This document shows positions 2,623-35,435 of a DNA stretch of 42,630 nucleotides, piece by piece. Positions within the stretch are counted from its first letter, which is position 1. Every line of letters begins with the position of its first letter. The stretch is from positions 1 through 42,630 of the IMG/VR virus record IMGVR_UViG_3300020201_000042. One strand, 5' to 3'. The position numbers were made by a program, and so were the translations under genes. The notes below the pieces were generated by a model. It did not search any database. It was not told the origin of the DNA and saw only the letters and a program-made list of their open reading frames with translations. The DNA is from a virus.

Positions 2623-3340
2623 ATTATCATTTATACGTAAACTTCCTAACGGGAAATATAGAGTCGTGTCTAAAAAAGGCCGAAATCTCGGTACCTACAC
2701 GACTCTAGAAGAAGCCAAGGAAAGATTACGTATGGTTGAGTGGTTTAAACATAAATCAAAATTTAAAAAGAAAGCATCCGAAACCACGATCTCGACCAAT
2801 CTCAACTCTATAAAAGAATTAACTTATTCAGAAATTCATCGTCAATTAAGACAATCTGGTGATGAAACGATACTAGAGGGTTTTAGATCTGTATTTAAAT
2901 TTTATTTTGATCTTTACTGCTATAAATATCCTGATAAATGTGAAATCATGGCTATCAGTAAAACTTTAAATATATTACATGCGATCCAGCCTATTCAGTT
3001 GGAAGATCGGCATGCCAGTAATATAATTTCAGGACTAGTAAAAACAGCCGAACCGGTTAATCTTGGTGACCCTAAAATTGCCGCTAGATATTTGTCTGAC
3101 TTTATAAAGTTTCTTTTAAGAAGAATATCTCCAGAATCACGAACCAGGTCTATGCAGAACCTTGCTACAAAAATTCAAAACTTAAATGAATTAGACATAG
3201 CTTCGAAGAAGACTCCGGTCTCTGCATCTATCGGACAATCAATAACTCTTGTTAAAAACGTCCTGACGAATCAAAATCCACAATATATACGAGAGGTTTT
3301 GAAAGAAATAGCTAATCATTTGATGACAGGTAGCCAATGA
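2615..3340 (+). CDS. Structural-region protein with short N-terminal basic domain, unknown function
   Basis: 241 residues. The first 45 form a compact basic domain (LPNGKYRVVSKKGRNLGTY then TTLEEAKERLRMVEWFK). It resembles small phage domains of the type KYRVxSKKGKxLGTYxTxxEAxxRLRQVEYFK that I recall at the ends of phage proteins; their function is unknown. The rest is mostly helical with no recognised fold. It contains FKKKASE (about 50-56) and GLVKTAEP (about 138-145), two copies of the K-x-A type motif seen in neighbouring proteins. The ATG lies inside the end of the lysozyme-domain gene (8-nt overlap), and its TGA overlaps the next ATG (ATGA). This places it in one co-translated block with the lysozyme and phosphatase genes. 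Confidence 0.7.
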   Translation: MIKLSFIRKLPNGKYRVVSKKGRNLGTYTTLEEAKERLRMVEWFKHKSKFKKKASETTISTNLNSIKELTYSEIHRQLRQSGDETILEGFRSVFKFYFDLYCYKYPDKCEIMAISKTLNILHAIQPIQLEDRHASNIISGLVKTAEPVNLGDPKIAARYLSDFIKFLLRRISPESRTRSMQNLATKIQNLNELDIASKKTPVSASIGQSITLVKNVLTNQNPQYIREVLKEIANHLMTGSQ

Positions 3341-4068
3341 TTCGCCGTTTTGTACAGGTAGATCCGTATGTTTTGAGGGGCTCCGCTCCAACACGTCAAG
3401 ATGTAATTATACTGAATAAACGTTTTAATGTAAAAAGAATCATAAGCCTTGATTTCAACTCTGGTAATGAAATATCAGAAATATGTTTTATATTAGGAAT
3501 CCAGCATATTATGATTCCGATATTTGTAAAACAATACAATTCTTTACATAAATTAAAATCTATCGATCTGAATGAACTATTTCGGTACAACGGCAATAGT
3601 CCTGAAGATGGAAAAACATTTGTCCATTGTCTTCAGGGCAAGGATAGAACTGGATTGATGGTTGCCTTGTATAGGATCCAGAATAAATGGCCTGCTGAAA
3701 AGGCACGTGAAGAGGCTATTAAATTGGATTTTGGAAAAAATCTACCTACTGAAGTGACTCGTGCATATATGAAAGTTATGGATGATAATTCAGCTTTTGA
3801 TATTCCGATGCAGAGCGATTATATTGCTGATTCAAAATTCAATAATAATTTTCAGAATTCTTTCGCACCGTACGATTCTGACGTGACGCCTCAAGAACAA
3901 TACGGAATTGTAAATCAATGGTCAACGAATTTAGATTTTTGGGATAATAGAGAAATTCCTACGGATCCAAGATTTGTTGGAGAATCTGTGCCTCGTGTGG
4001 GCGAATTTGATAATTATACTGCAATGAATTGTTTTGGCCCGGTTGGCGTGGGAGGCGGTTTCGTATGA
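3337..4068 (+). CDS. Protein tyrosine/dual-specificity phosphatase-like protein
   Basis: 243 residues. The signature P-loop of the cysteine-based phosphatase superfamily is clear: VHCLQGKDRTGLM, with Cys98 as nucleophile and Arg104 (C-x5-R). The upstream segment (YVLRGSAPTRQD, then RIISLDFN) matches the usual N-terminal strands of DSP/atypical phosphatases, and DFGKNLP follows the catalytic helices. Residues about 155-243 are an extra tail rich in Asp, Asn, Phe and Gly, with no fold recognised. Such enzymes remove phosphate from Tyr/Ser/Thr or sometimes from RNA or lipids; the substrate here is unknown. It sits in a coupled block with the lysozyme gene (4-nt overlap upstream, 4-nt overlap downstream), so it may be a virion component or be co-expressed late. 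Confidence 0.85.
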   Translation: MIRRFVQVDPYVLRGSAPTRQDVIILNKRFNVKRIISLDFNSGNEISEICFILGIQHIMIPIFVKQYNSLHKLKSIDLNELFRYNGNSPEDGKTFVHCLQGKDRTGLMVALYRIQNKWPAEKAREEAIKLDFGKNLPTEVTRAYMKVMDDNSAFDIPMQSDYIADSKFNNNFQNSFAPYDSDVTPQEQYGIVNQWSTNLDFWDNREIPTDPRFVGESVPRVGEFDNYTAMNCFGPVGVGGGFV

Positions 4069-8366: not shown

Positions 8367-8492
8367 ATAGGAACCAAAATGAAAAGAAATATGATTGGTA
8401 ATGCAGTCGCGGCAGATATGCAGGAACTGCTTCGCAGCCAAGAGTTTGAGAGTCTTTTCTCAAAAAGCTTCAAAAAGGAAGCCTCGTTGACT
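8367..8492 (+). repeat. Copy 1 of duplicated 126-bp leader cassette
   Basis: This 126-bp stretch matches 14825-14950 with a single base difference (codon 21: CAA Gln here, CCA Pro there). It comprises the ribosome-binding site region (ATAGGAACC), the ATG and the first 38 codons. Similarity stops abruptly on both sides. Confidence 0.95.
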
Positions 8493-8972
8493 GTTGAGGT
8501 ATCATGCACCCACAAAGGTAAATGCAAAAGCGAAGATTGTACTCATGCAGAGGATTGTGGCGCGGCAACGGATTGCGCACCCTGTCCAGAAAAGAAGTTA
8601 GCAAATATTTATGACGTGTTGGGTTATCTTATGAAAGTGTCGGAAGTGTTGGACGAGGTAGGTCTCAACCGTACCGCGGAACTTAGCTTAAAGCTCGCCG
8701 ATATGATTGTTGTTGAGGCGAAAAAGAAATCAGAAGAAGACGACAAAAAATCTAAAAAAGATCCGAAAGCAAAAGACGCAGATAAGGCTGGCGCAAAGTC
8801 AAAGGATCCGAAAGCAAAAGACGCAGATAAGGCTGGCGCAAAGTCAAAGGATCCGAAAGCAAAAGACGCAGATAAAGCAAAGGATCCTAAAGCAAAGGAT
8901 GCCGATAAAGCAAAAGATGCAAAGTCTAAAGCTGACGCAAAAGATAAAAAAGAAGAGTTAAAAAAAAAGTAG
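8379..8972 (+). CDS. Leader-bearing Cys-rich / Lys-Asp-Ala repeat protein, probable internal virion protein
   Basis: 197 residues in three parts. Residues 1-38 are the leader shared almost exactly with the 14837 protein, ending in SFKKEASLT. Residues about 39-70 are Cys-rich (CTHKGKCKSEDCTHAEDC and more), resembling a small metal-binding or disulfide cluster. Residues about 74-110 are a helical hairpin (YLMKVSEVLDEVGLNRTAEL) like those in several neighbours. The rest is a highly charged tail of repeated DPKAKDADKAG units, polycationic overall. The gene follows the scaffold by 23 nt and ends just before a terminator. A shared N-terminal leader next to a prohead protease recalls the capsid-targeting sequences of T4 internal proteins. 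I infer packaging in the head; a Lys-rich tail would suit DNA binding. Confidence 0.75.
   Translation: MKRNMIGNAVAADMQELLRSQEFESLFSKSFKKEASLTVEVSCTHKGKCKSEDCTHAEDCGAATDCAPCPEKKLANIYDVLGYLMKVSEVLDEVGLNRTAELSLKLADMIVVEAKKKSEEDDKKSKKDPKAKDADKAGAKSKDPKAKDADKAGAKSKDPKAKDADKAKDPKAKDADKAKDAKSKADAKDKKEELKKK
8760..8890 (+). repeat. 45-bp tandem repeat (DPKAKDADKAGAKSK)
   Basis: Two perfect 45-bp units (8760-8804, 8805-8849) and degenerate shorter copies afterwards encode a Lys/Ala/Asp repeat at the C-terminus of the leader-bearing protein. Confidence 0.9.
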
Positions 8973-14715: not shown

Positions 14716-14859
14716 ATGAAAAGCGAAATTTTTGAAGAATATGCAAAACTTGCCCGTGAACGTGGTCTGGATGGTCTCGTAAAGACTGCCAGAAAGAAAG
14801 ATAAAGAAGAGATCAGCACGATCGATAGGAACCAAAATGAAAAGAAATATGATTGGTAA
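14716..14859 (+). CDS. Short ORF, possible remnant of displaced N-terminus
   Basis: 47 codons: ATG 14716, weak AGG site, TAA at 14857-14859. The start MKSEIFEEYAKLARERGL continues to GLVKTARKKDKEE, a plausible small core-protein sequence with the K-x-A motif. From 14825 on it runs into the duplicated cassette in another frame, so its last residues (DRNQNEKKYDW) are a by-product of that cassette. I infer either a genuine small gene overlapping the next one, or the old N-terminus of the 14837 gene separated when the cassette was inserted. It is preceded by TATAAATA at 14699-14706, similar to T4-type late promoters, although it is very close to the start. Confidence 0.5.
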   Translation: MKSEIFEEYAKLARERGLDGLVKTARKKDKEEISTIDRNQNEKKYDW

Positions 14860-14950
14860 TGCAGTCGCGGCAGATATGCAGGAACTGCTTCGCAGCCCAG
14901 AGTTTGAGAGTCTTTTCTCAAAAAGCTTCAAAAAGGAAGCCTCGTTGACT
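14825..14950 (+). repeat. Copy 2 of duplicated 126-bp leader cassette
   Basis: It matches 8367-8492 except at one base. The cassette supplies the ribosome-binding region, start codon and first 38 codons of the 14837 gene and interrupts the 14716 frame. Confidence 0.95.
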
Positions 14951-16042
14951 ATGGAGCAGGCTCATCCAGAACCTGCCGTTATTCTACCGGCACATGATAA
15001 AATCAATGGTTTGGTTGAAAATGAGATGGAGCGCCAAAACATTAATATAAACGTTATTCGTGATAAAAAGTTTCATGTATTTTATAGTCACAAGTATGCT
15101 GCGGATCAGCTTTCAATGGAGCTGATCCGGATAGCCAATGATCTTGATAATCGTGATAAAACAGAGCTTAGAAGTTTAGCTGATGAGTGTTTGAATAAAC
15201 TATCACCAATTAAAAAAGAAGCAATCGGCCCTCTTGCAATCGTAGCCGGTGCAGCAGCAGCCATTTTGGGCACCATTTGGGTATACCAACATATTTCTTC
15301 AGCCAATCAAGGACTGACGGTTTCGCTACAAGATGCAATCTCTAAATTAGATAATTTGAAGGATGATTCTGATTTCGGCGAAAATACATTGAAACAAGAA
15401 TTTAAAACAAATTTACAACAATTTAAAAATGAACTTTCTAGTTTATTGGCTGAAACGAAACAATTTGAATCGATAAAATCAAAAGTATTTATGCCAAGCT
15501 CCCATAAACAACTTATGGACATGGGCAAAACATTAGGTGCGGAAGCCAAAGCCAGTGTCACTAAATTTAGTGAAAATTTAAAAGAACGCGGTGAGAAAAT
15601 AACTGATTTCATTGATATGTTAGGAAATACAGAATATGTTAGATCACAGATACAAGATGAATCAGTAGTACGACAGATTATGGGTCCATTAAAAGATCTT
15701 TGGTCTGGAAAAGGAAAATGGTCATTGATGAGTGATGATTTCGAGAGACTTCAGATGTCGCTAAAGTCTCTTGCCGAAGCAATCAATTCTACTAATGATT
15801 TATTGGAAAATAGACTGGCAGCGTTTCAAGAGAAAGCAGCAGAAACGATTGTTAATCGCGAAAAGAAAAAAGAAGAATCTGAAAAGAAAAAAGAAGAAGC
15901 TAAAAAGAAAGAAACGGCTCCTCCACAAATTCCAGGTGATGAAGAGGCTCCCGCAACAACTGTTCCGGCAAATGACAACACTCAAGCAGAACCTAATGAA
16001 CTTGAGCAGGCAGATCGTGCGTTTCAAAATTGGCAACGGTAA
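14837..16042 (+). CDS. Leader-bearing protein with one membrane helix, probable internal virion protein
   Basis: 401 residues. Residues 1-38 are the leader shared with the 8379 protein. A second possible start, Met39 (MEQAHPEP), directly follows the leader. A helical hairpin (LIRIANDLDNRDKTELRSLA) leads to SPIKKEAIGP, directly followed by a hydrophobic segment (PLAIVAGAAAAILGTIWVY). Then comes a long helical region and a highly charged coiled coil (repeats of EKKKEE) with a Pro/Ala/Asn C-terminal tail. No catalytic motif. The K-K-E-A motif appears both in the leader and just before the membrane helix, so maturation cleavage could expose that helix (inference). It is the last gene before the structured leader of the 16199 unit. 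Confidence 0.75.
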   Translation: MKRNMIGNAVAADMQELLRSPEFESLFSKSFKKEASLTMEQAHPEPAVILPAHDKINGLVENEMERQNININVIRDKKFHVFYSHKYAADQLSMELIRIANDLDNRDKTELRSLADECLNKLSPIKKEAIGPLAIVAGAAAAILGTIWVYQHISSANQGLTVSLQDAISKLDNLKDDSDFGENTLKQEFKTNLQQFKNELSSLLAETKQFESIKSKVFMPSSHKQLMDMGKTLGAEAKASVTKFSENLKERGEKITDFIDMLGNTEYVRSQIQDESVVRQIMGPLKDLWSGKGKWSLMSDDFERLQMSLKSLAEAINSTNDLLENRLAAFQEKAAETIVNREKKKEESEKKKEEAKKKETAPPQIPGDEEAPATTVPANDNTQAEPNELEQADRAFQNWQR

Positions 16043-17094: not shown

Positions 17095-17310
17095 ATGTCT
17101 TTGTTTAACAACAAGGGTGAAATCAACGCGAGTTCACTCCGCGACGCACTATCGGTGGTCGCAAAGTACGCATCAGTACTGGAAGAAAATCAGCCATCAA
17201 ACACGTCACTTGCCGGGTCCATGACGGACGAGGCCCGTGACATTTTGATTTCACGAGCCATTTTGACGCAGGACGGTAAAATCGCCCTCGCGCAGTCAAT
17301 GGCAAACCCT
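17095..17310 (+). CDS. Major capsid protein, exon 1
   Basis: 72 codons from ATG 17095 (site AAGGAAA). The sequence ends LAQSMANP at 17310, and the next triplet is a TAA that belongs to the intron. Joined to exon 2 at 18511 it reads ...SMANP-ITNLIRRNLDYHG... in phase, giving a 338-residue protein. This N-terminal arm precedes the conserved core. Without splicing only a 72-residue fragment would be made. GC-rich codon use matches exon 2 and differs clearly from the AT-rich endonuclease gene in between. Exon 1 ends in T, and CCC-T-T can pair with AGGGG at 17319-17323, as expected for a group I 5' splice site. Confidence 0.8.
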
Positions 17311-18510
17311 TAATGGATAGGGGCTCCCGTAAGTAATTATGGGATGTGAATTTGGCCATATGCTGGAAACTCTAAAAGCCATCTCACTATAACACTCTAA
17401 AGGCTACGCATCGCAGCTAGTCTATCCGGAAACGGAATCGTTATAGTAACAGAAGATGGATGATATAGACAATCAGCAGGAAAGACTGGCAAGTGACAAA
17501 CGAAGAAATTAAAATTCTTTATGAGACTGGATTAACAGTTAGAGAAATTGCTGAACGACTTGATAAAAGTTACGAAACAGTAAGAAAAATTCTCAAAGCT
17601 GCTAAAGTAAAATGGACAAGAAATTATATTTCGGACCTGACACCTGATCAGGTAAATGATATTATTAATAAATTTGATAATGGCGAAACAATAAAATCAT
17701 TGTCCAAATGGTATGAAATATCCGGACCCTCTCTATCAAAATTACTAAAAGCTCACAACAGAGTAGTAATTTCGAATCTTCGTAAATATGATATTTTACG
17801 ACAAGTACCACTTAACTCAGTTCAAAAGCAACTGATTGTAGGAGGAATGCTTGGAGACGGTTGTCTTTATAAAGATTCAACTAAAGGTAACTTTAAATTT
17901 TCGTTTGGTCACTGTGAAGCGCAAGAACAATATTTTCATTGGAAGGTTGCAATGCTGGATCCGTTTATTAATACTTTTAATAAAAGTGTTAATAAAACCA
18001 GAAATTCAACTATGTTTCAAACTACCACGATTTGCCATCAAGATTTGAATTTTTTTGGCAAAATGTTTTATGATGAAAATAGAGTTAAACATGTTCCTAA
18101 AAATTTAGATATGTACCTAACACCCTTATCACTAGCAGTATGGGTACAGGATGACGGTAATCTAAATGCAAAAGTAAACATGAGAATCGCTTCAATGGGT
18201 TTTACAGAATCAGAAAATTATCTACTTAGAGATTATTTAAAATCATGTTTTGATTTAAATTCTAAAGTGATGATTTTTAATTACAAAGGTAAAAAATATT
18301 ATCAAATAACTTTAAATAAAGAAAATACACAAAAGTTATCTGATATTATCAGGCCGCATGTAATTGATTCTATGAAATATAAACTCATGCCAGAATCCTC
18401 AACGAGTAGATGCCAAACGCCGATAGATTGATTATTCAATCATTGGATGATGATGTATTCTGAACTTTACTGAGAAGTAAAGAAGCGCCGAACGGGTAAC
18501 CCAAAGCGCG
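17311..18510 (+). ncRNA. Group I intron in the major capsid gene
   Basis: About 1200 bases separate two halves of one protein frame. P1: C307-C308-C309 pair with G323-G322-G321, U310 wobbles with G320 and U311 pairs with A319, so the splice follows U17310. The core shows the usual pattern: GCTG (17362-65) with CAGC (17414-17), AGCC (17377-80) with GGCT (17402-05) in a CTAAAAGCC...CTAAAGGCT context, and P7 GTCTAT (17420-25) with ATAGAC (17465-70) preceded by GAAGATGG. A P9-like hairpin CTTTACT-GAGA-AGTAAAG lies at 18465-18482. The 3' end is placed after G18510 because it keeps phase and ends in G. The 3' site is less certain than the 5' site. Confidence 0.85.
17493..18431 (+). CDS. LAGLIDADG homing endonuclease, intron-encoded
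   Basis: 312 residues, GTG start with AGGAAAG (17478-17484). Residues 1-90 carry two helix-turn-helix segments (LTVREIAERLDKSYETVRK and a second near 63-86). Two LAGLIDADG motifs follow: LIVGGMLGDG at 114-123 (Asp122) and LAVWVQDDG at 214-222, the pattern of a single-chain two-motif enzyme. Such enzymes cut intronless alleles at the insertion site and drive spread of the intron. The ORF is AT-rich, unlike the flanking exons, as expected for a mobile gene. It lies downstream of the P7 strands, so probably in the P9 region. Its last codons (ESSTSRCQTP) overlap intron RNA sequence that resembles a core R-type element. Confidence 0.9.
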   Translation: MTNEEIKILYETGLTVREIAERLDKSYETVRKILKAAKVKWTRNYISDLTPDQVNDIINKFDNGETIKSLSKWYEISGPSLSKLLKAHNRVVISNLRKYDILRQVPLNSVQKQLIVGGMLGDGCLYKDSTKGNFKFSFGHCEAQEQYFHWKVAMLDPFINTFNKSVNKTRNSTMFQTTTICHQDLNFFGKMFYDENRVKHVPKNLDMYLTPLSLAVWVQDDGNLNAKVNMRIASMGFTESENYLLRDYLKSCFDLNSKVMIFNYKGKKYYQITLNKENTQKLSDIIRPHVIDSMKYKLMPESSTSRCQTPID

Positions 18511-19311
18511 ATAACAAATTTGATCCGAAGAAATTTAGATTACCACGGGGTGGCACGTAGAGCCCTTGTTGTAGACATGTTGCCGCAGGGCGCTCTACCG
18601 ACGTATGACCGTGATATTGATGTCGCGGCGGTAGTTGTTTCGAGCAACGGTTCAGCGCCGGAGAGCCGTGTATTCGGTGATCGCGTTGTTGTTCCGGAAT
18701 TCGAAATCGTATCCAACCCCACGGTTCGTATTGCGGAAGTCCGGCGTCGTCGGTTCAACGTGATTGATCGTGCGGTTCAGAAGGCACGTCAGGAAATCAT
18801 GGCTCAGGAAGACGCGAACGTCTTCGCAGCGCTTGATTCAGCCGCTTCGGTGGAAAACACCGTTCAGGACGTTACGGACGCGGGTCTTCTCAAACGCGAC
18901 CTCCTTGAGCTGAAAGTTCAGGTTGATCGTTGGGACCTCGTAACGACCAAGTACTTCATGAACATCAATGAATTTACCGATATCCTCAAGTGGGGTTCGG
19001 GTGGTGGTCAGGGCGTTGGTGGTGGCGAGCTTGATCCAGTTTCGCAGCGTGAAGTTCTCCAGACGGGGCTTTATGCTCACATCTGGGGCGCGGATATCAT
19101 CGTAAGCAAGATCGTTCCCCCGGGAACGGTGTTTGCGTGCGCGGATCCGGAATTCGTCGGAGTCATGCCGGTTCGGCAGGACATTGAAGTTCTTCCGGCA
19201 GACGAGCCCAAGCGCCTGTCGCTTGGCTGGGTTGTGTCGGAAATCGTCGGTTGCGGCATCCTGAATGCCCGCGGCGTTTCTGCTGGTCGTAAGTCAGTAC
19301 TGGCTGGCTGA
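18511..19311 (+). CDS. Major capsid protein, exon 2
   Basis: 266 codons plus stop after the splice, including ITN before the in-frame TTG at 18520, which is not a real start because the upstream frame is needed. The sequence is typical of a phage capsid protein of HK97 type: FEIVSNPTVRIAEVRRRRF, DRAVQKARQEIMAQEDANVF, a glycine loop GSGGGQGVGGGELDPVSQRE, and a late beta region GADIIVSKIVPPGTVFACAD ending in RLSLGWVVSEIVGCGILNAR. The family assignment comes from overall pattern, position after the protease and decoration genes, and strong codon bias, not from an exact match. Twin hairpins follow. Confidence 0.8.
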   Translation: MTNLIRRNLDYHGVARRALVVDMLPQGALPTYDRDIDVAAVVVSSNGSAPESRVFGDRVVVPEFEIVSNPTVRIAEVRRRRFNVIDRAVQKARQEIMAQEDANVFAALDSAASVENTVQDVTDAGLLKRDLLELKVQVDRWDLVTTKYFMNINEFTDILKWGSGGGQGVGGGELDPVSQREVLQTGLYAHIWGADIIVSKIVPPGTVFACADPEFVGVMPVRQDIEVLPADEPKRLSLGWVVSEIVGCGILNARGVSAGRKSVLAG

Positions 19312-19409: not shown

Positions 19410-20153
19410 GTGCAGGGTCTCGCCTTTCAACGGGGCGTAAGAAAAATCTGGAATAAACTTCTCACGAAGTTCCTTCCCTGTCTAATACTCTGCGCTATCG
19501 TAGTTTTTTCTTTATCTTGCGAAGGAAGTAGAAAAGCTAAAATACCAATCATCCGGGCAGCTCCGGTCCAGCCCGTTACGTGGCCCGTTAGTAACGATAC
19601 AGTATTCAACGCAACAATATATGTTGATTACCGATTTGAATCTGTAGAATTACTTGAATTACAAAAAGCAGTTCAGGAATGGGAGCGAGTCACGGTAAAT
19701 ACAGTTCAGTTCAATCTGATCTGGTCCTATTCGCATGTCGGTTCATCTGAATTTGCACCGGATCGAAACATTATACAGGTGGTACAGGATACAGACCCAA
19801 TCATTACTGACCTGGATACTTTGACACTTACAATCTATAAACAAAAACTAAATGTTTTAGGATTCGCGAAAAGAGATGAATCTTGGAAAAATTTTAGAAT
19901 TGGACTGGTTCAGAGTAGGATGTCCAACACTAAACAGTTCAGGTCAGTAGCTTTGCATGAGCTTGGACATATATTAGGATTGGTACATCGTGATGGCAAT
20001 AGATCTGTAATGAATTCTATAAATTCAGGACTTAATTGTATAACTAGGTTTGATATGGAACAGTTTTGTGAAAAATTTAATTGCAAGGTAGATACGTTTC
20101 CATATTGTACGGAACAACCCATTTCTAGACATATAGACACCAGTCGTGATTAA
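19410..20153 (+). CDS. Secreted metzincin-type zinc metallopeptidase
   Basis: 247 residues. HELGHILGLVH (His183, Glu184, His187, His193) is the full HExxHxxGxxH zinc site, followed by RSVMNS with Met201 as Met-turn, the metzincin (matrixin-like) pattern. The N-terminus has basic residues, then a hydrophobic stretch FLPCLILCAIVVFSLSC ending at Cys37. This could be a lipoprotein signal, but the residues before Cys fit the classic lipobox only loosely. The start is GTG 19410 without a good ribosome-binding site; no better start precedes the signal. It is the first gene after the capsid terminators and overlaps the next by 8 nt. An exported peptidase among virion genes is unusual. It may act at the host envelope or on virion proteins. 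Confidence 0.8.
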   Translation: MQGLAFQRGVRKIWNKLLTKFLPCLILCAIVVFSLSCEGSRKAKIPIIRAAPVQPVTWPVSNDTVFNATIYVDYRFESVELLELQKAVQEWERVTVNTVQFNLIWSYSHVGSSEFAPDRNIIQVVQDTDPIITDLDTLTLTIYKQKLNVLGFAKRDESWKNFRIGLVQSRMSNTKQFRSVALHELGHILGLVHRDGNRSVMNSINSGLNCITRFDMEQFCEKFNCKVDTFPYCTEQPISRHIDTSRD

Positions 20154-24084: not shown

Positions 24085-24783
24085 ATGTCCAAGATCCGTA
24101 AAGAAGACATTATTGATGCAGAAATTGTTGACGCGGATGAATTAATATCCGACGCCACATTAGTATATTTCGCTACCATTACGATCGTCTCTACAACCAC
24201 CGGAACAAACATAATTGTTGTATCGGGATTTACATTTAATAATCCGGATGTTCAGGTTGAAGCGGGAGATTTGATCCAAATAACCGGTTCGGCAGCCGCG
24301 GGAACCTATACGATAAATTCTATCATCAACAGTACCACTATTGATGTTGTGGAATCGATCGTCACTTCTACCGGTGGGACTGCGGATCTTCTGTACGATT
24401 CTGGATCTCTAAGAGTTGGATTCAATCCGGCCGGATTGACAGCTGTCTCGGCTACGGATGTTCAGAATGCAATTCAACAACTCGCGACATCTATCGGAAG
24501 CACTACTTTAAATTATGATCTTTTGTTATCTGTAGATCCTCCGAGGCCAGATAATAACTATTCTAATATAAAGACAAATAATAATATTACACAAGAAACT
24601 TGGAAAAGAACTGATCTTACGAATTTAAAACGAATAGATTATACCTATACATCTAATAAGGTAACGACTGAAGTTATTAGAGTGTATGCGGCTAACGGAT
24701 CAACAGTAGTGGCGCAGTTGACCAGCACAATGACTTATTCCGGCAATACAGTCACGGCCATAGCATCGGTTAGGAACATTTAA
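24085..24783 (+). CDS. Fibre-region beta protein, unknown function
   Basis: 232 residues, ATG 24085 after AAGGTAG. A short acidic N-terminus (KEDIIDAEIVDADELISDAT) leads into a beta domain (FTFNNPDVQVEAGDLIQITG, then AAGTYTINSIINSTTIDVVE). The motif LTAVSATDVQNAIQQLA is typical of phage tail-fibre assembly or attachment domains (AVSATNVQDAIDEL type). The C-terminal 80 residues are another beta segment. Its stop overlaps the next ATG (TAATG), so it is co-translated with the first giant fibre. Probably the adaptor or base of the fibre. Confidence 0.65.
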   Translation: MSKIRKEDIIDAEIVDADELISDATLVYFATITIVSTTTGTNIIVVSGFTFNNPDVQVEAGDLIQITGSAAAGTYTINSIINSTTIDVVESIVTSTGGTADLLYDSGSLRVGFNPAGLTAVSATDVQNAIQQLATSIGSTTLNYDLLLSVDPPRPDNNYSNIKTNNNITQETWKRTDLTNLKRIDYTYTSNKVTTEVIRVYAANGSTVVAQLTSTMTYSGNTVTAIASVRNI

Positions 24784-27731
24784 TGTCCGGAATATTCTTT
24801 TTAGGACCGCAACCAGTAATTGAGAATCTGAACCATCAGATTGCTCTATCTAATGCTACCGTTACGACGAACGGAAACATTGTCCTGACAGGGTTTTCGT
24901 CTCCAGATTTAAAAGTAATAGTTAATATCACGGGAACTCCAACCGGAACATCACCTCAGCTTACTTTTAATATTAATGAAGTAGATCCGATCGATCAGAC
25001 AACAACCTTCGGTTCTTCTGGATCACTCGGGCCATATTCGGCACCTGTCATTACTAGCCTGACCCTCAATCCGTTATCTGGAGGTGCGGTTAATGTTTCA
25101 TGGGTAATTTCAGGAGCCGGAGCTACATTTACCGGAGTTAATGTTTCGGTCGTCGATATCAATACTGGAAGAAATGTCAATGTATCCGGAACAGTTTCCG
25201 CAACTCAATCCGGAACCTGGACTGTACAGCCAGGAAATACTGCCAATACGACTCCCTGGTTAACTACAATTAATCAAGGTGGCAATTCTGCTACGGTTAC
25301 GGGCTCTAATGCTTTAAAAGTAGATGGTTCCGCAGTAACTCAGCCGGTCAATGGAACCGTAACGGCAAATATCGGCACTACTGGCGGATTAGCTCTCGAC
25401 GCAACAGTTGCCAAGTTAACAATAACCCAATCAACTGCATTAGGATCTAACACTCAGATTCTTGTAGGTGGTTCCGTTACCACCGCATCACCTACCTACT
25501 CTACTGGAAATATAAACCCATTTTCATTAACTACTGCCGGAGCTTTAAGAGTAGATGGATCCAGCACTACTCAACCTGTTTCCGGAACCGTAACTTCCAA
25601 CATCGGAACAACAGGGGGTTTGGCTCTCGACGCAACTCTTACCGGTGGAACCCAAACAACAAGGATTACTGACGGAACCAACACCGCAACAGTAAAAGCC
25701 GCCAGTACTGCGCCGCTCGCAACAGATCCAGCTTTAGTTGTTTCGATAAGTCCAAATTCAAGCATCACCGCTACCAATCCATCCGTAAGTCTTACCGGGA
25801 CCAGTCCTCCAGCCAGCGCTACTTATATTGGTGGTTCGGTAACGTCAGGGACACCGTCTTATACGAATGGGCAAATGAATGCTCTTTCCCTTACGACCGG
25901 AGGATTGTTGCGAACAGATGGATCCGGGTCAACCCAGCCTATCAGCGCTGTATCGTTACCACTTCCTACTGGTGCGGCTACCGAAACCACCCTATCGACT
26001 CGTCTCGCCGATGCTACTTTTACGGCCAGAATTAATACATTAGGGCAAAAAACATCTGCCAATTCTACACCTGTTGTGATCGCTTCCGATCAAAGCAGTA
26101 TCGCTGTAACGGCATCTCAATCCACTGCTGCGAATCTTAGAGCCCAGATAGCTTCCGAATCTGCAACGGGTTCCGCTACACCTGCAACGGCATCTCTTTC
26201 AGGCGGAGCCGTTACAACGGCCGCGCCTACCTATACAACAGGAAATCTTGGAGCGTTATCATTAACTACAACCGGTTCATTAAGAATAGATAATTCTAGT
26301 TGGATCGGCTCAACCGCTCCTACGGTTGGCTCAAAAACTAGCGCAAATTCAATACCAGTCGTTATTGCCTCAAATCAAGGAGCCGTAACGGTCAATGCCT
26401 CTGCTACTGTTGGTCTGGTCGACAATGCAGTATTTACTGATGGTACGACTAGAGTACAGCCGATTGGTTTTATTTTCGATGAAACAGCCGGTACCGCATT
26501 AACTGAAAATGATGCTGGTGCCGCTAGAATTGACACGAAACGTGCTCAAATTTTAGTAATTGAAGACGCGACGACAAGAGGCACCAGAACAGCTGTAAAG
26601 GCTGCCAGTACCGCTGCCGTTGCGACGGATCCGGCATTAGTAGTCGCGATATCTCCAAACAACACAGTTGCCGTTACAGGAACCGTTACTGCTAATAATG
26701 CATCTGTCAGTACAACCGGGTCTTCGCCTCCAGCCAGCGCTACATATATCGGAGGATCCGTAACAACTGCTGCTCCGACCTATACAACTGGTCAGATGTC
26801 AGCACTATCACTTACGACAGGAGGATTATTAAGAGTTGATGGTTCTGGAGTCACTCAACCCATCAGTGCTGCATCGTTACCGCTTCCGACCGGAGCCGCG
26901 ACCGAAACTACACTATCAACACGACTTGCCGATGCAACATTTACTGGCAGAATAAATACATTAGGGCAAAAGACATCTGCTAATTCTACACCTGTTGTTT
27001 TGGCATCGGATCAATCCACATTAACTGTCAGCGGTACCGTTACGGCGAATCAAGGAACCGCAGCTTCCTTGGCAAATGCCTGGTCTACCAAGATAACCGA
27101 TGCAACGAATGGCCCGGTTGCCGTAAAAGCAGCCAGCACAGCTGCCGTGGCAGCGGATCCAGCATTGGTAGTAGCGATCAGTCCTAATAATAATGTATCG
27201 GTTCTGTATAGAGAATTAGCAACATTTACTGCGCTCGCCACGGCAATCGTTCCGGCTAATAATAAATCTATGTGGTCTATTCTGAATGCAGTAGGCAGCT
27301 CCGTTAGAATAAAAATACAAGAAATTTATCTAGTAAATGTTAAAGTCAGTGGTGTTACGGGGGTCGCGATTACATTTGAATTAAGACGAATAATAGGTCA
27401 TTCCGCTGGAACCGCTATCACGGCGATTGAAAAAATGGATTCAGCCGATACATTGGATTCAAACGTTACCGTCAGAACCAACGCAACCGTTGCGGGAGAA
27501 TCGGCAACTTTATTGTGGCGAAATATTTGGAGCAGCGATGAATGGGGGCCCGGAGCACAAGACGTTGAGTCTTCTGATCATGATCTTCAAACGATGTTTC
27601 CAATTTTTGCAAAGAAAACAAATGATTCAAAATCAGTACTTTTGAGAGCCGGTGAAGGCCTGACAGTAAAATGTGCAACATCAACTACCGCCGGAACATT
27701 TGATCTTCTGGTTATATTTACTCAAGAGTAG
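24783..27731 (+). CDS. Repeat-built fibre protein 1
   Basis: 982 residues. Residues about 1-125 are Ig-like beta (PVIENLNHQIALSNATVTTN...). From about 130 to 810 the chain is assembled from repeated beta modules: GTVTANIG-type strands, four GGSVTT..PTYTTGQ...LSLTT copies, three TSANSTPVV.ASDQS copies, and one FxFDETAGTALTENDAGAAR module. Residues about 815-982 form a distinct C-terminal domain. Repeats of this type occur in phage and prophage fibre or head-fibre proteins. They suggest a long trimeric beta rod with a receptor or attachment end. Copies are highly alike as protein but differ at synonymous sites. Confidence 0.75.
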   Translation: MSGIFFLGPQPVIENLNHQIALSNATVTTNGNIVLTGFSSPDLKVIVNITGTPTGTSPQLTFNINEVDPIDQTTTFGSSGSLGPYSAPVITSLTLNPLSGGAVNVSWVISGAGATFTGVNVSVVDINTGRNVNVSGTVSATQSGTWTVQPGNTANTTPWLTTINQGGNSATVTGSNALKVDGSAVTQPVNGTVTANIGTTGGLALDATVAKLTITQSTALGSNTQILVGGSVTTASPTYSTGNINPFSLTTAGALRVDGSSTTQPVSGTVTSNIGTTGGLALDATLTGGTQTTRITDGTNTATVKAASTAPLATDPALVVSISPNSSITATNPSVSLTGTSPPASATYIGGSVTSGTPSYTNGQMNALSLTTGGLLRTDGSGSTQPISAVSLPLPTGAATETTLSTRLADATFTARINTLGQKTSANSTPVVIASDQSSIAVTASQSTAANLRAQIASESATGSATPATASLSGGAVTTAAPTYTTGNLGALSLTTTGSLRIDNSSWIGSTAPTVGSKTSANSIPVVIASNQGAVTVNASATVGLVDNAVFTDGTTRVQPIGFIFDETAGTALTENDAGAARIDTKRAQILVIEDATTRGTRTAVKAASTAAVATDPALVVAISPNNTVAVTGTVTANNASVSTTGSSPPASATYIGGSVTTAAPTYTTGQMSALSLTTGGLLRVDGSGVTQPISAASLPLPTGAATETTLSTRLADATFTGRINTLGQKTSANSTPVVLASDQSTLTVSGTVTANQGTAASLANAWSTKITDATNGPVAVKAASTAAVAADPALVVAISPNNNVSVLYRELATFTALATAIVPANNKSMWSILNAVGSSVRIKIQEIYLVNVKVSGVTGVAITFELRRIIGHSAGTAITAIEKMDSADTLDSNVTVRTNATVAGESATLLWRNIWSSDEWGPGAQDVESSDHDLQTMFPIFAKKTNDSKSVLLRAGEGLTVKCATSTTAGTFDLLVIFTQE
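25187..27190 (+). repeat. Repeat array in fibre protein 1
   Basis: Interspersed modules of about 30-70 codons recur in varying order: GGSVTT..., RVDGS..TQPVS, LGQKTSANSTPVV, VKAASTA.VATDPALVV and ATQSGTWTVQPGN. DNA identity is clearly lower than protein identity. Boundaries are approximate. Confidence 0.8.
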
Positions 27732-27745
27732 AATAAGGCACGATA

Positions 27746-30700
27746 ATGGCAAAGATTGGTTCAGGTCTGATAAGAATAGATGTTTCGTGGACATCTTTCA
27801 AAAGTACTGTTTCGAGTAAAAATCTTACTATTCAGTATGAAGAAACCGCAACCGCGTATGAGATATTTTCACTTGATGGAAATATAATATATTACGTCCT
27901 GATCTTCAAAGTTACAGTTCCGAATGCAAGCTACAATCAGGTTCAAAACGATCTTGATAAAACTGATTTTGAAACCAACTACAAAGATATCGTTACGAAT
28001 CGCGTTGTGTCGCCTCCAGCTGCCGTGGATGGTTCCGCAGCCAACTCAACCAATCCTACATTAATTGCTGCGAGTGACGGAAGTATAGTCAGGACCGTAA
28101 GGTCTGATTCTTCTGGAAGACTCATAATGATCGGGCAGGGTGTCGCCGGGACTCCAGCCGGAGGAGTACTTAGCATTCAAGGTGTTTCCGGAGGAACCGC
28201 CATAACGGTCAGCGGGACCGTCACGGCTGCAAATGCATCCGTCAGTACTACCGGTTCAACTCCTCCAGCCTCCGCTACGTATATTGGGGGATCCGTCACA
28301 ACGGCAGCTCCCTCCTATACTACGGGACAAATATCTGCCTTGTCCCTCACAACGGGAGGACTATTACGTACTGACGGATCCGGTACGACACAACCAGTCA
28401 GTGGAACCGTATCAGCAACACAATCCGGTACCTGGACAGTTCAGCCGGGTAACACTGCCAACACTATTCCCTGGTTAACTACTATTAATCAAGGCGGCAA
28501 TTCAGCAACCGTTACCGGAGCTAATGCTCTTAAAGTCGATGGCTCGGCTGTAACCCAACCGGTCAGCGGTACCGTAACCGCTAATGTCGGGACTACTAAT
28601 GGTTTGGCACTCGACGTAACTCTTGCCAAATTAACTATAGCGCAATCAACGGCACTTGGATCCAGTACCCAAGCTCTTGTCGGTGGTTCCGTAACTACTG
28701 CGGCTCCTACATATACAACTGGAAATATAAATCCATTATCACTTACAACGTCTGGTGCGTTAAGAGTTGATGGTTCCGGCACGACTCAGCCGATAAGCGC
28801 AGCATCTTTACCATTACCTACGGGTGCCGCAACCGAAACTACTCTCGGCACTCGACTTGCCGATTCTACATTTATCGGAAGAATAAATACATTAGGCCAA
28901 AAAACATCTGCCAATTCAACACCAGTTGTTCTGGCAACAGATCAGTCTACTATTGCCGTTACCGGGACCGTCACTGCAACCAACCCTTCAGTATCGGCAA
29001 CCGCTGCGTCACCGCCCAGCAGCGCTACATATATTGGTGGTTCTGTCACGACCGCCGCACCTACCTATACAACTGGTCAATTAAATGCACTATCACTAAC
29101 AACTGGCGGTTTGCTTCGTACTGATGGATCCGGTGCAACACAACCTGTCAGTGGAACTGTCGCAGCAACCCAATCAGGTACCTGGACAGTTCAACCGGGT
29201 AATACTGCCAACACTACTCCATGGCTAGCAACTATAAATCAAGGTGGTAATTCAGCTACCGTAACAGGTTTAAATGCATTAAAAGTCGATGGATCCGCAG
29301 TAACACAGCCAGTCAGCGGAACTGTTACGGCAAATATCGGAACGACTAACGGATTAGCGCTTGATGCATCAGTTAATGGTATTTTATTAACGCAAGGATC
29401 TACTACTTCTGGGCAAAAGGGCAATTTAGTTCAGGGGGCTGTCACGACAGCCGCGCCATCTTATACGACCGCTCAAACTTCACCTCTTAGTTTAACGACT
29501 GCCGGGGCATTACGAACAGATAGTTCTGCCACGACTCAGCCTGTATCTGGAACCGTTACCGCAAATGCCGGTACAGGTAACTTTACAGTCGTACAGTCAA
29601 CAGCTGCTAATTTAAGATCTCAAACCGCATCTGAATCAGCAACCGGATCTACTACGCCCGCTACTGCCGGATTGGCTGGTGGAACCGTCACGACTGCCGC
29701 ACCAACCTACACTACTGGAAATTTAGGCGCTTTATCACTAACTACTTCAGGACTTTTAAGAGTAGATGGGTCCGGTACGACTCAACCTGTATCTGGTACC
29801 GTTACTTCTAATATCGGCACTACCAATGGTTTAGCACTCGATACGACGTTAACTGCACACTCTGTAGCTGATAACGCGGCGTTTACTGACGGAACAACAC
29901 GGGTTCAACCGGTAGGATTCATCTTCGATGAGGTCGCCGGTACATCGTTAACGGAGAACGATGCCGCGGCAGCTCGTATCGACAACAAACGTGCCCAGAT
30001 ACTAGTTATTGAGGATGGAAGCACACGTGGCACTCGTGCAACAGTTAAAGCTGCCAGCACAGCCGCGGTTGCTTCGGATCCTGCTCTAGTTGTTGCGATC
30101 AGTCCTAATAATGCCATTACGGTAACCAATCCATCTGTCAGTACGACGGGTTCCGCTCCTCCAGGATCCGCTACCTATATAGGAGGATCCGTAACAACAG
30201 CTGCACCTTCCTATACTACGGGACAAATGTCCGCATTGTCGCTCACCACAGTAGGAGCGTTACGTGTAGACGGATCAGCCGTGACACAGCCTGTATCGGC
30301 CGCTTCGCTTCCATTACCAGCCGGAGCAGCTACGGAATCAACGTTAGCAACTATACTGACTTTGTCTGGATTCCAATCTAGAATAAATACTTTGGGCCAG
30401 AAAACAATGGCCAGTTCTACTCCGGTAGTATTGTCATCTGATCAATCCGCAATACCAACATCACAATCAGGATCTTGGACCGTAACGGCGAATGCCGGAT
30501 CCGGGACATTTGCAGTGTCCGCGGCATCACTTCCGTTACCGTCTGGCGCCGCAACCGAAACATCATTAGCTAAATTAACTCTAACCCAAGGTTCGACTAC
30601 ATCTGGACAATCCGGCACACTATATTTGGGCGCCGTTACCACGACTGCCCCAACATATACTAACGGCCAATCTAGCCCGTTATCACTCGATACATCTGGC

Positions 30701-32656
30701 GCATTAAGAATTACCGGATCTATTTCAGCGTCTAATCCTTCGGTATCGACTACCGGCACGACTCCTCCCGCCTCTGCAACGTATATTGGTGGATCCGTTA
30801 CCACGGCAGCCCCATCCTATACTAATGGGCAGATGAGTGCTCTATCACTCACCACAACTGGATTACTAAGAGTAGATGGCTCGGGTGTTACGCAGCCAGT
30901 ATCCGGAACCATAACGGCGAATATCGGAACAACAAATGGTCTTGCGCTAGACGCTAGCATTACTGCGCAGTCATTAGTAGATAATGGTGCGTTTACCGAT
31001 GGTACGACTAGAGTCCAACCGGTTGGTTATATTTTCGATGAAGTCGCGGGTACCGCACTGACTGAAAATGATGCCGCGGCAGCCAGAATAGACTCTAAAC
31101 GCGCTCAGATCAATGTAATTGAAGACGGAACCACCAGGGGAACCAGGGCAACTGTAAAAGCCGCCAGTACCGCTGCGGTTGCCGGAGATACTTCTTTTGT
31201 TGTTGCGTTGTCTCCTAATTCACCTGTCCCGACTGGTAGCAATACTATCGGTATAGTTAATCAGGGAACCTCCGCATCATTAGCCAATGCCTGGTCTACC
31301 AAGATAACCGATGCTACGAATGGTCCAGTTGCGGTGAAAGCTGCCAGTACCGCGGCTATAGCGACTGATCCTGCTCTTGTAGTTGCGGTGAGTCCAAATA
31401 ATACACTTCCGGTTCAGGTTGCGGACGTCACTGCTACCGGAACGCTCAATGCACTTAATGCAAATGTTCAGATAACATTAGCCGGTAGAGAAACTGCTGG
31501 GTTTCAGTTGGCTGCCGGGACATTAATCGGAACTATTCTTGCAGAAGTTTCTTTTAATGGCGGAACTACTTGGAACTCCACATACATAGATAATACCGGT
31601 GGAAACAAAGTATCTAGTATAGTATTCAGTTCTTCCAATACTGCTACATCCAGCACCATAATTGGAGTGGGTGGCGCAGGGTTGGCACGTATCATAGTAT
31701 CGGCATTTACTTCCGGTACCGCTAATATTACGTTACGAGCCTCTAATGTATCGGATCCGAGTATATTATTCGGAGGGACGCCCGGGTCCACCACACAGCC
31801 GCCAGTTGGGGCCCAAATTGCTGGTTATGACAGCGCAGGTGTTTTGAGGGTTCCGTCAGTCAAGGCTGCTTCAACTGCACCAGGAGTATCGGATCAAGCT
31901 TTAGTAGTAGTGTTGAGTCCGAATCAACCAGCCATTCCCGTAACCACCGCTCCAACCACTTCAACTCCTAATTTATCAGTTGGCGTGATTGTTTTATCAT
32001 CCGTTACTACTTCATCTATACGTAAAACCACATATACCCAACAAACTTCAAATTTTACCGGATCCATAGCTTCTGCTAGCGCCAACGATAAATCAGCCGG
32101 TACCGGTGCCAGAACAGTTAGAATTTTTTGGGTCAATAGTACCGGAACAACAAACGGTACGGAAGATGTTACGTTGAACGGAACTACAGGCGTGAATCTT
32201 GTTACGACGACTATATGTCATATAGAAAAAATAGAAGTATTGACTGCTGGATCCGGCTTAGTAAATGCCGGAATTATTTCACTTTATACCGGAGTAAACA
32301 AAACCGGCACGGTTGTTGGATCAATCGCAGCCGGTGATAATGCTACTTTCTGGGCTCATCATTACGTAATAACCGGAAAAACATGCAACGTTACGGGAAT
32401 CTATCATGGTAACAGCTCTACAGTTTCCGGCGGAACTTCGGTATCGGTGCTCAGAACGAAATCCTTGACTGGTTCGAATGACGTAGAAAGACAAGTTTCA
32501 GACTTTATTAGCGTGGCAGGTGCGGCAAATCCGTTTACTCGGATTTATGGATCCGTTATAAGGGTTGCTGGACCAGTCGTATTAACAATGTACGTCACGA
32601 CTTCTTCCTCTACAACTATAAATTATAGAGGATCATTTGATTCATACGATGAATAA
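27746..32656 (+). CDS. Repeat-built fibre protein 2 (very long)
   Basis: 1636 residues, the largest gene in the window. Residues about 1-90 form an N-terminal module ending VQNDLDKTDFETNYKD, shared with the 32665 protein, so probably a common attachment domain. Residues about 140-1225 contain eight GGSVTT..PSYTTGQ.SALSLTT-type copies, two FxFDEVAGT.LTENDAAAAR modules and many GTVTAN strands. The last 400 residues are unique beta sequence, including GRETAGFQLAAGTLIGTI and two further beta regions, probably the distal tip. Good site AAGG before ATG 27746. By analogy with repetitive phage fibres it is likely a long virion fibre; the receptor is unknown. Confidence 0.75.
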   Translation: MAKIGSGLIRIDVSWTSFKSTVSSKNLTIQYEETATAYEIFSLDGNIIYYVLIFKVTVPNASYNQVQNDLDKTDFETNYKDIVTNRVVSPPAAVDGSAANSTNPTLIAASDGSIVRTVRSDSSGRLIMIGQGVAGTPAGGVLSIQGVSGGTAITVSGTVTAANASVSTTGSTPPASATYIGGSVTTAAPSYTTGQISALSLTTGGLLRTDGSGTTQPVSGTVSATQSGTWTVQPGNTANTIPWLTTINQGGNSATVTGANALKVDGSAVTQPVSGTVTANVGTTNGLALDVTLAKLTIAQSTALGSSTQALVGGSVTTAAPTYTTGNINPLSLTTSGALRVDGSGTTQPISAASLPLPTGAATETTLGTRLADSTFIGRINTLGQKTSANSTPVVLATDQSTIAVTGTVTATNPSVSATAASPPSSATYIGGSVTTAAPTYTTGQLNALSLTTGGLLRTDGSGATQPVSGTVAATQSGTWTVQPGNTANTTPWLATINQGGNSATVTGLNALKVDGSAVTQPVSGTVTANIGTTNGLALDASVNGILLTQGSTTSGQKGNLVQGAVTTAAPSYTTAQTSPLSLTTAGALRTDSSATTQPVSGTVTANAGTGNFTVVQSTAANLRSQTASESATGSTTPATAGLAGGTVTTAAPTYTTGNLGALSLTTSGLLRVDGSGTTQPVSGTVTSNIGTTNGLALDTTLTAHSVADNAAFTDGTTRVQPVGFIFDEVAGTSLTENDAAAARIDNKRAQILVIEDGSTRGTRATVKAASTAAVASDPALVVAISPNNAITVTNPSVSTTGSAPPGSATYIGGSVTTAAPSYTTGQMSALSLTTVGALRVDGSAVTQPVSAASLPLPAGAATESTLATILTLSGFQSRINTLGQKTMASSTPVVLSSDQSAIPTSQSGSWTVTANAGSGTFAVSAASLPLPSGAATETSLAKLTLTQGSTTSGQSGTLYLGAVTTTAPTYTNGQSSPLSLDTSGALRITGSISASNPSVSTTGTTPPASATYIGGSVTTAAPSYTNGQMSALSLTTTGLLRVDGSGVTQPVSGTITANIGTTNGLALDASITAQSLVDNGAFTDGTTRVQPVGYIFDEVAGTALTENDAAAARIDSKRAQINVIEDGTTRGTRATVKAASTAAVAGDTSFVVALSPNSPVPTGSNTIGIVNQGTSASLANAWSTKITDATNGPVAVKAASTAAIATDPALVVAVSPNNTLPVQVADVTATGTLNALNANVQITLAGRETAGFQLAAGTLIGTILAEVSFNGGTTWNSTYIDNTGGNKVSSIVFSSSNTATSSTIIGVGGAGLARIIVSAFTSGTANITLRASNVSDPSILFGGTPGSTTQPPVGAQIAGYDSAGVLRVPSVKAASTAPGVSDQALVVVLSPNQPAIPVTTAPTTSTPNLSVGVIVLSSVTTSSIRKTTYTQQTSNFTGSIASASANDKSAGTGARTVRIFWVNSTGTTNGTEDVTLNGTTGVNLVTTTICHIEKIEVLTAGSGLVNAGIISLYTGVNKTGTVVGSIAAGDNATFWAHHYVITGKTCNVTGIYHGNSSTVSGGTSVSVLRTKSLTGSNDVERQVSDFISVAGAANPFTRIYGSVIRVAGPVVLTMYVTTSSSTTINYRGSFDSYDE
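28206..31404 (+). repeat. Repeat array in fibre protein 2
   Basis: The same module family as in fibre protein 1, with more copies and a different order. Adjacent modules within this gene are often closer to modules in gene 1 than to their neighbours. This implies shuffling between the two genes. Boundaries are approximate. Confidence 0.8.
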
Positions 32657-33773: not shown

Positions 33774-34637
33774 ATGAGATTTCTTGTAATGTCGGGTGGT
33801 TCATGCAGAGGAGCGTTTCAAACAGGCTGTTTGAAATATTTATTAAATGATCTTGAACTTCAATACGACGGAGTCTGCGGCATCAGCATCGGTGCAATAA
33901 ATTCAGCAGTATTGGCTCAACATAGAAAAGATCAGCCGAAAGAAGCTTTTCTTGAATTAGAAAATCAATGGAATAATATTTCTCAAGAAAAAGTAATAAA
34001 ACCTTGGTGGCCGTTCGGAAAGCTTTCAAGCGTCTGGAAACAAAGTCTTTTTGATTCAACACCCCTGACTACTTGGTTAGAAAAAGATGTTGATCTTAAA
34101 AGAATCAGAGCTAGCGGAAGAATGATCGGTGTAGGTGCGGTTTCACTGGTTACGAATAAATATAGAATGTTCACGGAAAAAGATGATGATCTGATCAAGG
34201 GAGTCATTGCCAGCTCCAGTTATCCTGGATTCTTTATTCCGGTTAAAATTGGCGATGATATCTTTAGTGATGGTGGCTTAAAGAAACAAGTAAATCTGTC
34301 CGATGCTATTAATTTAGGTGCGGATGAAATTGATATGTTGGTTTGCAATCCTCCAGCAGAAGGAAGCAATGATCCTAAGTTGGGGAATACGATTGATGTT
34401 CTGGGAAGGACTTTAAGTACATTGTCGAATGAACTTATGGAATATAATATAAATACTTGTATTTTTTACAATAAATTAGTAACGGCGGGGTTGTCTGAAG
34501 GTAAACGTTATATTAAACTTAATGTTTTGAGACCAGAAACCAGCCTAATTTCTGATTCGATGGACTTTAGCCATGAAAGCTATAAAAGAATGTTTAATAT
34601 CGGATACGATCTGGCAAGAAAGAATTTCAAGCCATAG
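33774..34637 (+). CDS. Patatin-like phospholipase
   Basis: 287 residues. All hallmarks of the patatin fold are present: oxyanion loop SGGSCRGAFQTG (7-18), nucleophile Ser38 in GISIG, and Asp166 in SDGG completing the Ser-Asp dyad. The length is normal for a single-domain enzyme and there is no signal peptide. Patatins hydrolyse phospholipids or other acyl esters in membranes. As it follows the fibre genes with good spacing (ATG 33774, AGGATAA), it may be a late-expressed lysis or membrane-remodelling enzyme, or be virion-borne; the sequence does not decide. Confidence 0.9.
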   Translation: MRFLVMSGGSCRGAFQTGCLKYLLNDLELQYDGVCGISIGAINSAVLAQHRKDQPKEAFLELENQWNNISQEKVIKPWWPFGKLSSVWKQSLFDSTPLTTWLEKDVDLKRIRASGRMIGVGAVSLVTNKYRMFTEKDDDLIKGVIASSSYPGFFIPVKIGDDIFSDGGLKKQVNLSDAINLGADEIDMLVCNPPAEGSNDPKLGNTIDVLGRTLSTLSNELMEYNINTCIFYNKLVTAGLSEGKRYIKLNVLRPETSLISDSMDFSHESYKRMFNIGYDLARKNFKP

Positions 34638-35204: not shown

Positions 35205-35435
35205 ATGAGTGATAATAAAGAAGAAGAACGGTTTCAAGGTACGGTAGTTTGGTTTGATCCACGTAAAGGTTACGGATTTATTGGCCTGGATGGTCAGGAT
35301 GACCTTTTTGTTCATTTCTCTGATATTGTTTCGGAAGGATTCCGAACTCTTAAGAAAGAACAAAAAGTATCATTCACCATGGGTGTGAATAAAAAAGGCA
35401 AACCAAAAGCTGCCAACGTAATGGTTCTTCAATAA
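35205..35435 (+). CDS. csp: Cold-shock domain protein
   Basis: 76 residues. An OB-fold cold-shock domain with RNP1 KGYGFI (21-26) and RNP2 LFVHF (34-38), preceded by an acidic 10-residue extension. Such proteins bind single-stranded nucleic acid, melt RNA structures and affect translation. Here it could assist expression of structured phage mRNAs. Site AGGAAGC before ATG 35205. It ends convergently with the minus-strand genes, 8 nt from the stop of the 35444 gene. Confidence 0.9.

Follow-up and report, generated by a model that had tools for sequence, protein, structure and literature searches.

A probable mobile group I intron with a LAGLIDADG endonuclease gene in the major capsid gene of a giant phage of the phage G type, and related introns at neighbouring sites

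Introns in capsid genes are already known from LittleE, Tuc2009 and crAss-like phages. In mycobacteriophage LittleE, splicing of the capsid-gene intron was proven by RT-PCR together with protein sequencing (PMC3706429), and the same article cites a group I intron in the capsid subunit gene of lactococcal phage Tuc2009. For crAss-like phages, PMC7886860 describes group I introns in the MCP, with one MCP gene in five fragments. The huge Jug phages are rich in group I introns, some of which are spliced in metatranscriptomes, and the host genes named for them are mainly terL, nrdD and polymerase genes (PMC12363816). Finally, the PhiPA3 gp210 endonuclease cuts an RNA polymerase gene of PhiKZ, a case of endonuclease-driven interference (PMC11620839).

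The locus described here lies in the window, by which we mean the whole analysed stretch of 42,630 bp from an IMG/VR virus record. From sequence comparison we consider it very probable (about 0.93) that the major capsid gene at this locus belongs to a giant phage of the phage G type and is split by a mobile group I intron. The locus shares with LittleE an intron in the major capsid gene, an endonuclease gene, a U at the exon end and a G at the intron end. The LittleE intron differs by its phage group and host, its 819-bp insertion, its single site and its only probable intron class, and its endonuclease is an HNH enzyme encoded on the opposite strand, whereas that of the window is a LAGLIDADG enzyme (PMC3706429). 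With Tuc2009, an unrelated phage, the likeness is that of a group I intron in a capsid gene, as far as its citation in PMC3706429 goes. The crAss-like phages form a different group, and the portion of PMC7886860 considered contains no report of several sites within 20 nt. PhiPA3 gp210, an endonuclease likewise encoded by an intron of a jumbo phage and directed at an essential gene, is an HNH enzyme in an RNA polymerase gene, unlike that of the window (PMC11620839). We found no description of a capsid intron hot spot of the phage G type in the open-licence literature searched. A hot spot with so many closely packed sites, like the preference of the intron sublineage for capsid genes across six families, appears to be undescribed so far; both are presented below. 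Separately, crAss-like phage cr116_1 (NC_055882.1) has an annotated major capsid protein in two pieces flanking an HNH endonuclease gene, and another core-like match directly follows the second piece.

In eleven uninterrupted relatives the capsid protein reads MANP directly followed by IRRNLDY, with no insertion. A splice-aware alignment of the window, which imposed a U before the intron and a G at its end but neither the frame nor the protein match, placed the intron at 17311-18522. Judged against the empty sites of the relatives, the insertion is clean and the frame is kept. The initial annotation had ended the intron at 18510 and joined a protein of 338 residues; the true end lies 12 nt further, at 18522, exon 2 starts at 18523, and the corrected product has 334 aa, a length equal to that of the reference relative. 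The 18510/18511 junction was rejected: it would insert ITNL, four residues seen in none of the relatives, and it would lose P10 (GGAU/AUCC), which forms only with the corrected 3' site. Its other boundary assignments stood, namely exon 1 at 17095-17310 (72 aa), the in-frame TAA straight after exon 1, and the wobble P1 with a U.G pair at the splice site (CCCU/GGGG). The U and G ends and a P1 were found both in the window and at the sites of the relatives, where P1 measures 4 to 9 bp at well-mapped sites, against 4 bp in the window. The exon-end U paired to G in P1, the intron-final G and P10 are thus all present, as in a group I intron.

The spliced product aligns through the junction to the phrog_2522 family ('major head protein'), the profile running from position 67 to position 68 where the uninterrupted relatives are continuous, and this alignment bore out the earlier identification of the joined protein as a capsid protein. 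Exon 1 covers profile positions 10-67 with an E-value of 0.02, which is weak on its own, and exon 2 continues from position 68 with an E-value of 1e-65. Exon 1 is 50-74% identical to exon 1 of the relatives, and among annotated phages Bacillus phage G comes closest, with 52% identity across exon 2. The profile of the uninterrupted relatives matched the structure of phage G gp27 (PDB 6wkk, 6wkk_A) at 8e-105. An AlphaFold2 model of an uninterrupted capsid relative reached a pLDDT of 37 and was set aside. As the contigs of the relatives reach up to 480 kb, the window probably represents one piece of a giant phage genome. All the features of the locus are described in Table 1.

Table 1. Features of the interrupted capsid gene in the window, and mini-exons between neighbouring introns in relatives (sites in nt of the capsid cDNA)
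Feature	Position	Strand	Details
Exon 1, major capsid gene	17095..17310	+	72 aa; ends MANP; last base U
P1	17307..17323	+	exon CCCU 17307-17310 / GGGG 17320-17323; U.G at splice site
Group I intron	17311..18522	+	1,212 nt; first codon TAA; last base G; empty sites and splice-aware alignment
P10, 5' strand GGAU	17315..17318	+	partner exon 2 AUCC 18523-18526
P3, 5' strand UUUGGC	17351..17356	+	partner GCCAAA 18412-18417; covariation in relatives
P4, 5' strand UGCUGG	17361..17366	+	partner UCAGCA 17473-17478; sequence and fold
Extended P5 arm	17379..17459	+	CCAUCU/AGAUGG, ACUAUAAC/GUUAUAGU, GAAA-capped hairpin; fold
Shine-Dalgarno-like AGGAAAG	17478..17484	+	8 nt upstream of endonuclease GTG start
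P6/P6a, 5' strands GGA; CUGGCA	17479..17491	+	partner 18388-18398; sequence and fold
LAGLIDADG homing endonuclease	17493..18431	+	312 aa; GTG start; N-terminal HTH; Pfam, I-SceI match, dN/dS
P7, 5' strand GAGUA	18404..18408	+	partner UAUUC 18456-18460; double change C-G to G.U
P3, 3' strand GCCAAA	18412..18417	+	covariation
P8	18420..18446	+	CCGAU/AUUGG, inner hairpin; fold
P9 hairpin	18465..18482	+	CUUUACU-GAGA-AGUAAAG; fold
Exon 2, major capsid gene	18523..19311	+	262 aa; starts IRRNLDY; stop codon included
Mini-exon, 12 nt	L086, sites 206 and 218		
Mini-exon, 16 nt	L090, sites 206 and 222		
Mini-exon, 19 nt	L105, sites 255 and 274		
Mini-exon, 14 nt	L115, sites 260 and 274		

The ORF-less core of the window folded at -97.9 kcal/mol, compared with -75.4 +/- 5.4 for shuffled sequences (z -4.15), and the fold includes P1, P2, P4, P5, P6, P7, P8 and P9. 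P3, being pseudoknotted with P7, was checked apart from the fold. Over 18 distinct strand sets, P3 and P7 showed 24 double-change cells against 7.2 after shuffling, and none of the 500 shuffles scored as high. The strands were paired in 98% of the cells, a percentage that leans upward because strands were taken by motif and partly by best pairing; it dropped sharply once the partners were slid. P7 is GAGUA/UAUUC in the window against GACUA/UAGUC in relatives, so that both strands have changed with the pairing kept, which is evidence of a maintained fold. The pair that is G.U in the window is C-G in all 17 relatives compared, and splicing could be weaker in the window than in these relatives because of this G.U and of the 4-bp P1. 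The core pairings proposed in the initial annotation were thus confirmed by the fold and by the P3/P7 covariation, the latter marking the pseudoknot core of a group I intron. The expected match to an Rfam group I model was found only in part. Over the whole window nothing reached the gathering score of RF00028, and a permissive search returned two low-scoring fragments on the same strand (18.4 and 17.2 bits), whereas ORF-less introns at two other sites of the same gene, in the relative L086, scored 74.9 and 72.1 bits; we attribute the low score of the window to the endonuclease gene, which splits the core. P6 is closed by a short loop in the ORF-less relatives. A candidate for P7 upstream of the ORF, AAGACUGG, was discarded as a part of P6, the ORF-less relatives placing the P7 5' strand after the ORF.

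The endonuclease gene sits in the P6 loop, and its 3' end encodes through P6', P7 and P3' and into P8; in relatives the endonuclease frame often extends as far as P7'. That a two-motif LAGLIDADG gene lies within the intron (17493-18431) had been noticed at the outset and was corroborated by matches to Pfam LAGLIDADG_2 (PF03161; 5e-32, 111 bits for a cut-off of 25) and to I-SceI (2e-8). The two-motif core aligns with I-SceI across about 200 residues spanning both motifs, and LGDG and DDG, with both catalytic Asp, are retained. The window enzyme differs from I-SceI by an extra N-terminal HTH of about 100 aa, by a C-terminus that the intron core encodes, and by its phage host. Compared with relatives its dN/dS (NG86) is about 0.11-0.19, with dS saturated; on sequence evidence the endonuclease is intact and under purifying selection. 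In the endonuclease tree, the window copy (site 216) pairs with that of L085 (site 222) with a support of 83/96, and both are nested among copies mostly from sites 218 and 222, plus one from site 274. This grouping suggests that neighbouring splice sites share a single endonuclease lineage. In the endonuclease of L085 itself (1394-2344), the nearest relative, motif 1 reads LGNG, with N replacing the first catalytic D, and this enzyme may therefore be inactive. A scan of cellular genomes recovered only distant LAGLIDADG genes, at about 24-39% identity, many of them in Patescibacteria MAGs.

Among the 80 capsid loci fetched first as the most similar, 75 were contiguous at the site and 1 (L044) was cut by the contig end; the intron or its kin was present in 4, three of them near-identical to the window (L002, L003, L004) and the other being L078. 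More intron loci were collected by pattern scans for the intron core and by endonuclease searches. Insertions were mapped to eleven sites of the capsid gene (cDNA nt 206, 216, 218, 222, 225, 255, 260, 274, 483, 491 and 734), five of which fall in 20 nt; two loci (L122, L125) were moved to site 218 by hand, and the low-scoring or partial loci L096, L098, L101, L103 and L123 were not accepted at face value. Site 216 is restricted to the window and to near-identical contigs of the same phage population, and relatives carry related introns 2, 6, 9 and 10 nt from it. Several phages carry two or three introns in the capsid gene. For instance, L086 (1995-3814) has three group I introns there, two of them without endonuclease, and the first two are separated by the 12-nt exon. 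Capsid genes with and without introns are interleaved, with 10 changes by parsimony, on a capsid tree whose weak support makes the number of gains uncertain. The presumed target stretch around MANPIRRN is conserved in relatives. As judged from these mapped insertions, the capsid gene of the related phages is a hot spot for intron invasion. An in-frame stop occurs within four codons in 28 of the 35 mapped introns, against 30 of 70 counts for the other two frames. Such an early stop probably keeps translation and splicing apart, as ribosomes would stay off the core.

From these features splicing and mobility can be pictured as follows. The intron RNA would fold around P3-P8 with the end of exon 1 held in P1 (CCCU/GGGG) and a guanosine bound in P7, and would remove itself by two transesterifications, P10 (GGAU/AUCC) positioning exon 2 and G18522 being the final intron base. 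The spliced mRNA would give the 334-aa capsid protein, and unspliced RNA only a 72-aa fragment because the intron opens with an in-frame stop; the earlier proposal that full-length capsid protein requires splicing is supported to this extent. Mobility would begin with a cut by the LAGLIDADG enzyme encoded in the P6 loop, made in a capsid gene that lacks the intron and close to the codons for MANPIRRN; repair would then copy the intron in. The stop at the first intron codon also excludes an intein. Inteins and group II introns are both known to split phage genes, but no group II family matched and the group I pairings, with the RF00028 hits in relatives, fit a group I intron, so that we give either of these two elements practically no credence. 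It is hardly more plausible that the intron has decayed, or that an assembly artefact has left the capsid gene broken: the P7 of the window does deviate from the consensus of the family, and its P1 is short, yet the separate contigs L002, L003, L004 and L084 carry this insertion too, with their exons and ORF intact, and in P7 each strand has a change that compensates the other.

The initial annotation had also proposed that the intron times or limits the production of capsid protein, to the benefit of the phage. The stop at the first intron codon, and the excess of early in-frame stops over the other two frames (28/35 against 30/70), would suit a regulator of this kind. However, early stops are equally expected of any intron whose core must be kept free of ribosomes, the insertion sites vary among relatives, and among the 80 most similar capsid loci 75 have no interruption. 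Occurrence this patchy and intron-poor is better explained by a selfish mobile element than by a control that the phage needs, and we regard a regulatory role as improbable. Together, the patchy occurrence, the diversity of sites and the intact endonuclease fit a self-splicing mobile element that tolerates its location. Compatible with a mobile intron, and less easily dismissed than regulation although still doubtful, is the idea that the endonuclease chiefly acts against phages without the intron during co-infection, by cutting their capsid genes, in the manner of PhiPA3 gp210 towards PhiKZ. The enzyme is intact and under selection, its presumed target stretch is conserved and intron-free relatives are numerous, but plain homing accounts for the same facts.

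The intron sublineage was also searched outside the phage-G-type capsid genes. Of the 47 contigs hit by pattern A (P3-P4-P5), 32 had the match in a capsid gene of the phage G type and 13 in a capsid gene of another family (phrog_1357, 267, 1328, 9953 and Mu gpT, called by PHROG or by identity to a PHROG-assigned contig), and 2 were left without assignment. Pattern B, built on the opposite end of the core, matched 45. Of these, 14 had been found before, 21 were new and lay in capsid genes (the call being weak for L209 and made by eye for L215, from a peptide match to L192), 7 had no assignment, 1 lay near a glycosyltransferase gene (L201) and 2 were chance matches lacking a core (L191, L205). 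As a control, the broader pattern C gave 68 new contigs, of which at least 16 had the match in MCP genes, 15 in a single cluster of major tail proteins, 3 in tape measure genes and 2 in other head proteins, with 32 left unassigned. Strict capsid specificity was rejected, isolates having similar cores in nrdE and tape-measure genes. The capsid bias is strong in the sublineage of the window and weaker in the wider class, and it is a lead and not a proof, given that capsid introns served to build patterns A and B and that the contigs lack independence from one another. Tentatively, the sublineage might be specialised on major capsid genes and move by small steps, with eleven sites in one family and five within 20 nt, an apparently shared endonuclease lineage and only the guide sequence changing; it would have reached at least five other families, possibly via reverse splicing into the late mRNA present in the largest amount. 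On the tail side, a major tail protein family (phrog_4574 for the tested representative) of many metagenomic phages repeatedly hosts a related class of group I introns (contigs L231, L235, L237, L238, L245, L252, L260, L264, L272, L274, L276, L279, L285, L287 and L290).

No late product is needed by a phage more than its capsid protein, so an element surviving in the capsid gene must splice very well. Related introns at positions 2-19 nt from one another in a single gene, some with an endonuclease and some lacking it, together with intron-free relatives, constitute a natural test set for the change of site by group I introns, for the uncoupling of endonuclease target and splice site, and for the minimal exon (12 nt) between two introns. 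They also call for caution in annotation, such capsid genes being easily missed as two or more fragments.

Other genes of the window were noted in passing. Directly 3' of the capsid gene, 19410-20153 encodes a zinc metalloprotease (HELGHILGLVH), recognised by eye, as were a tyrosine-phosphatase-like protein (3337-4068, HCLQGKDRTG), a patatin-like lipase (33774-34637, GISIGA) and a cold-shock protein (35205-35435). The otherwise different ORFs 8379-8972 and 14837-16042 have almost the same N-terminal sequence (MKRNMIGNAVAADMQELLRS[QP]EFESLFSKSFKKEASLT), which may be a leader that was duplicated or a propeptide removed in head maturation. Two very long ORFs, 24783-27731 (982 aa) and 27746-32656 (1,636 aa), consist of repeats like SATYIGGSVTTAAPTYTTGQMSALSLTTGGLLRVDGS and probably encode tail or fibre proteins. 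Finally, the 674-aa product of 598-2622 contains a phage lysozyme domain (Pfam Phage_lysozyme, 1.6e-35) and is perhaps a virion-borne enzyme.
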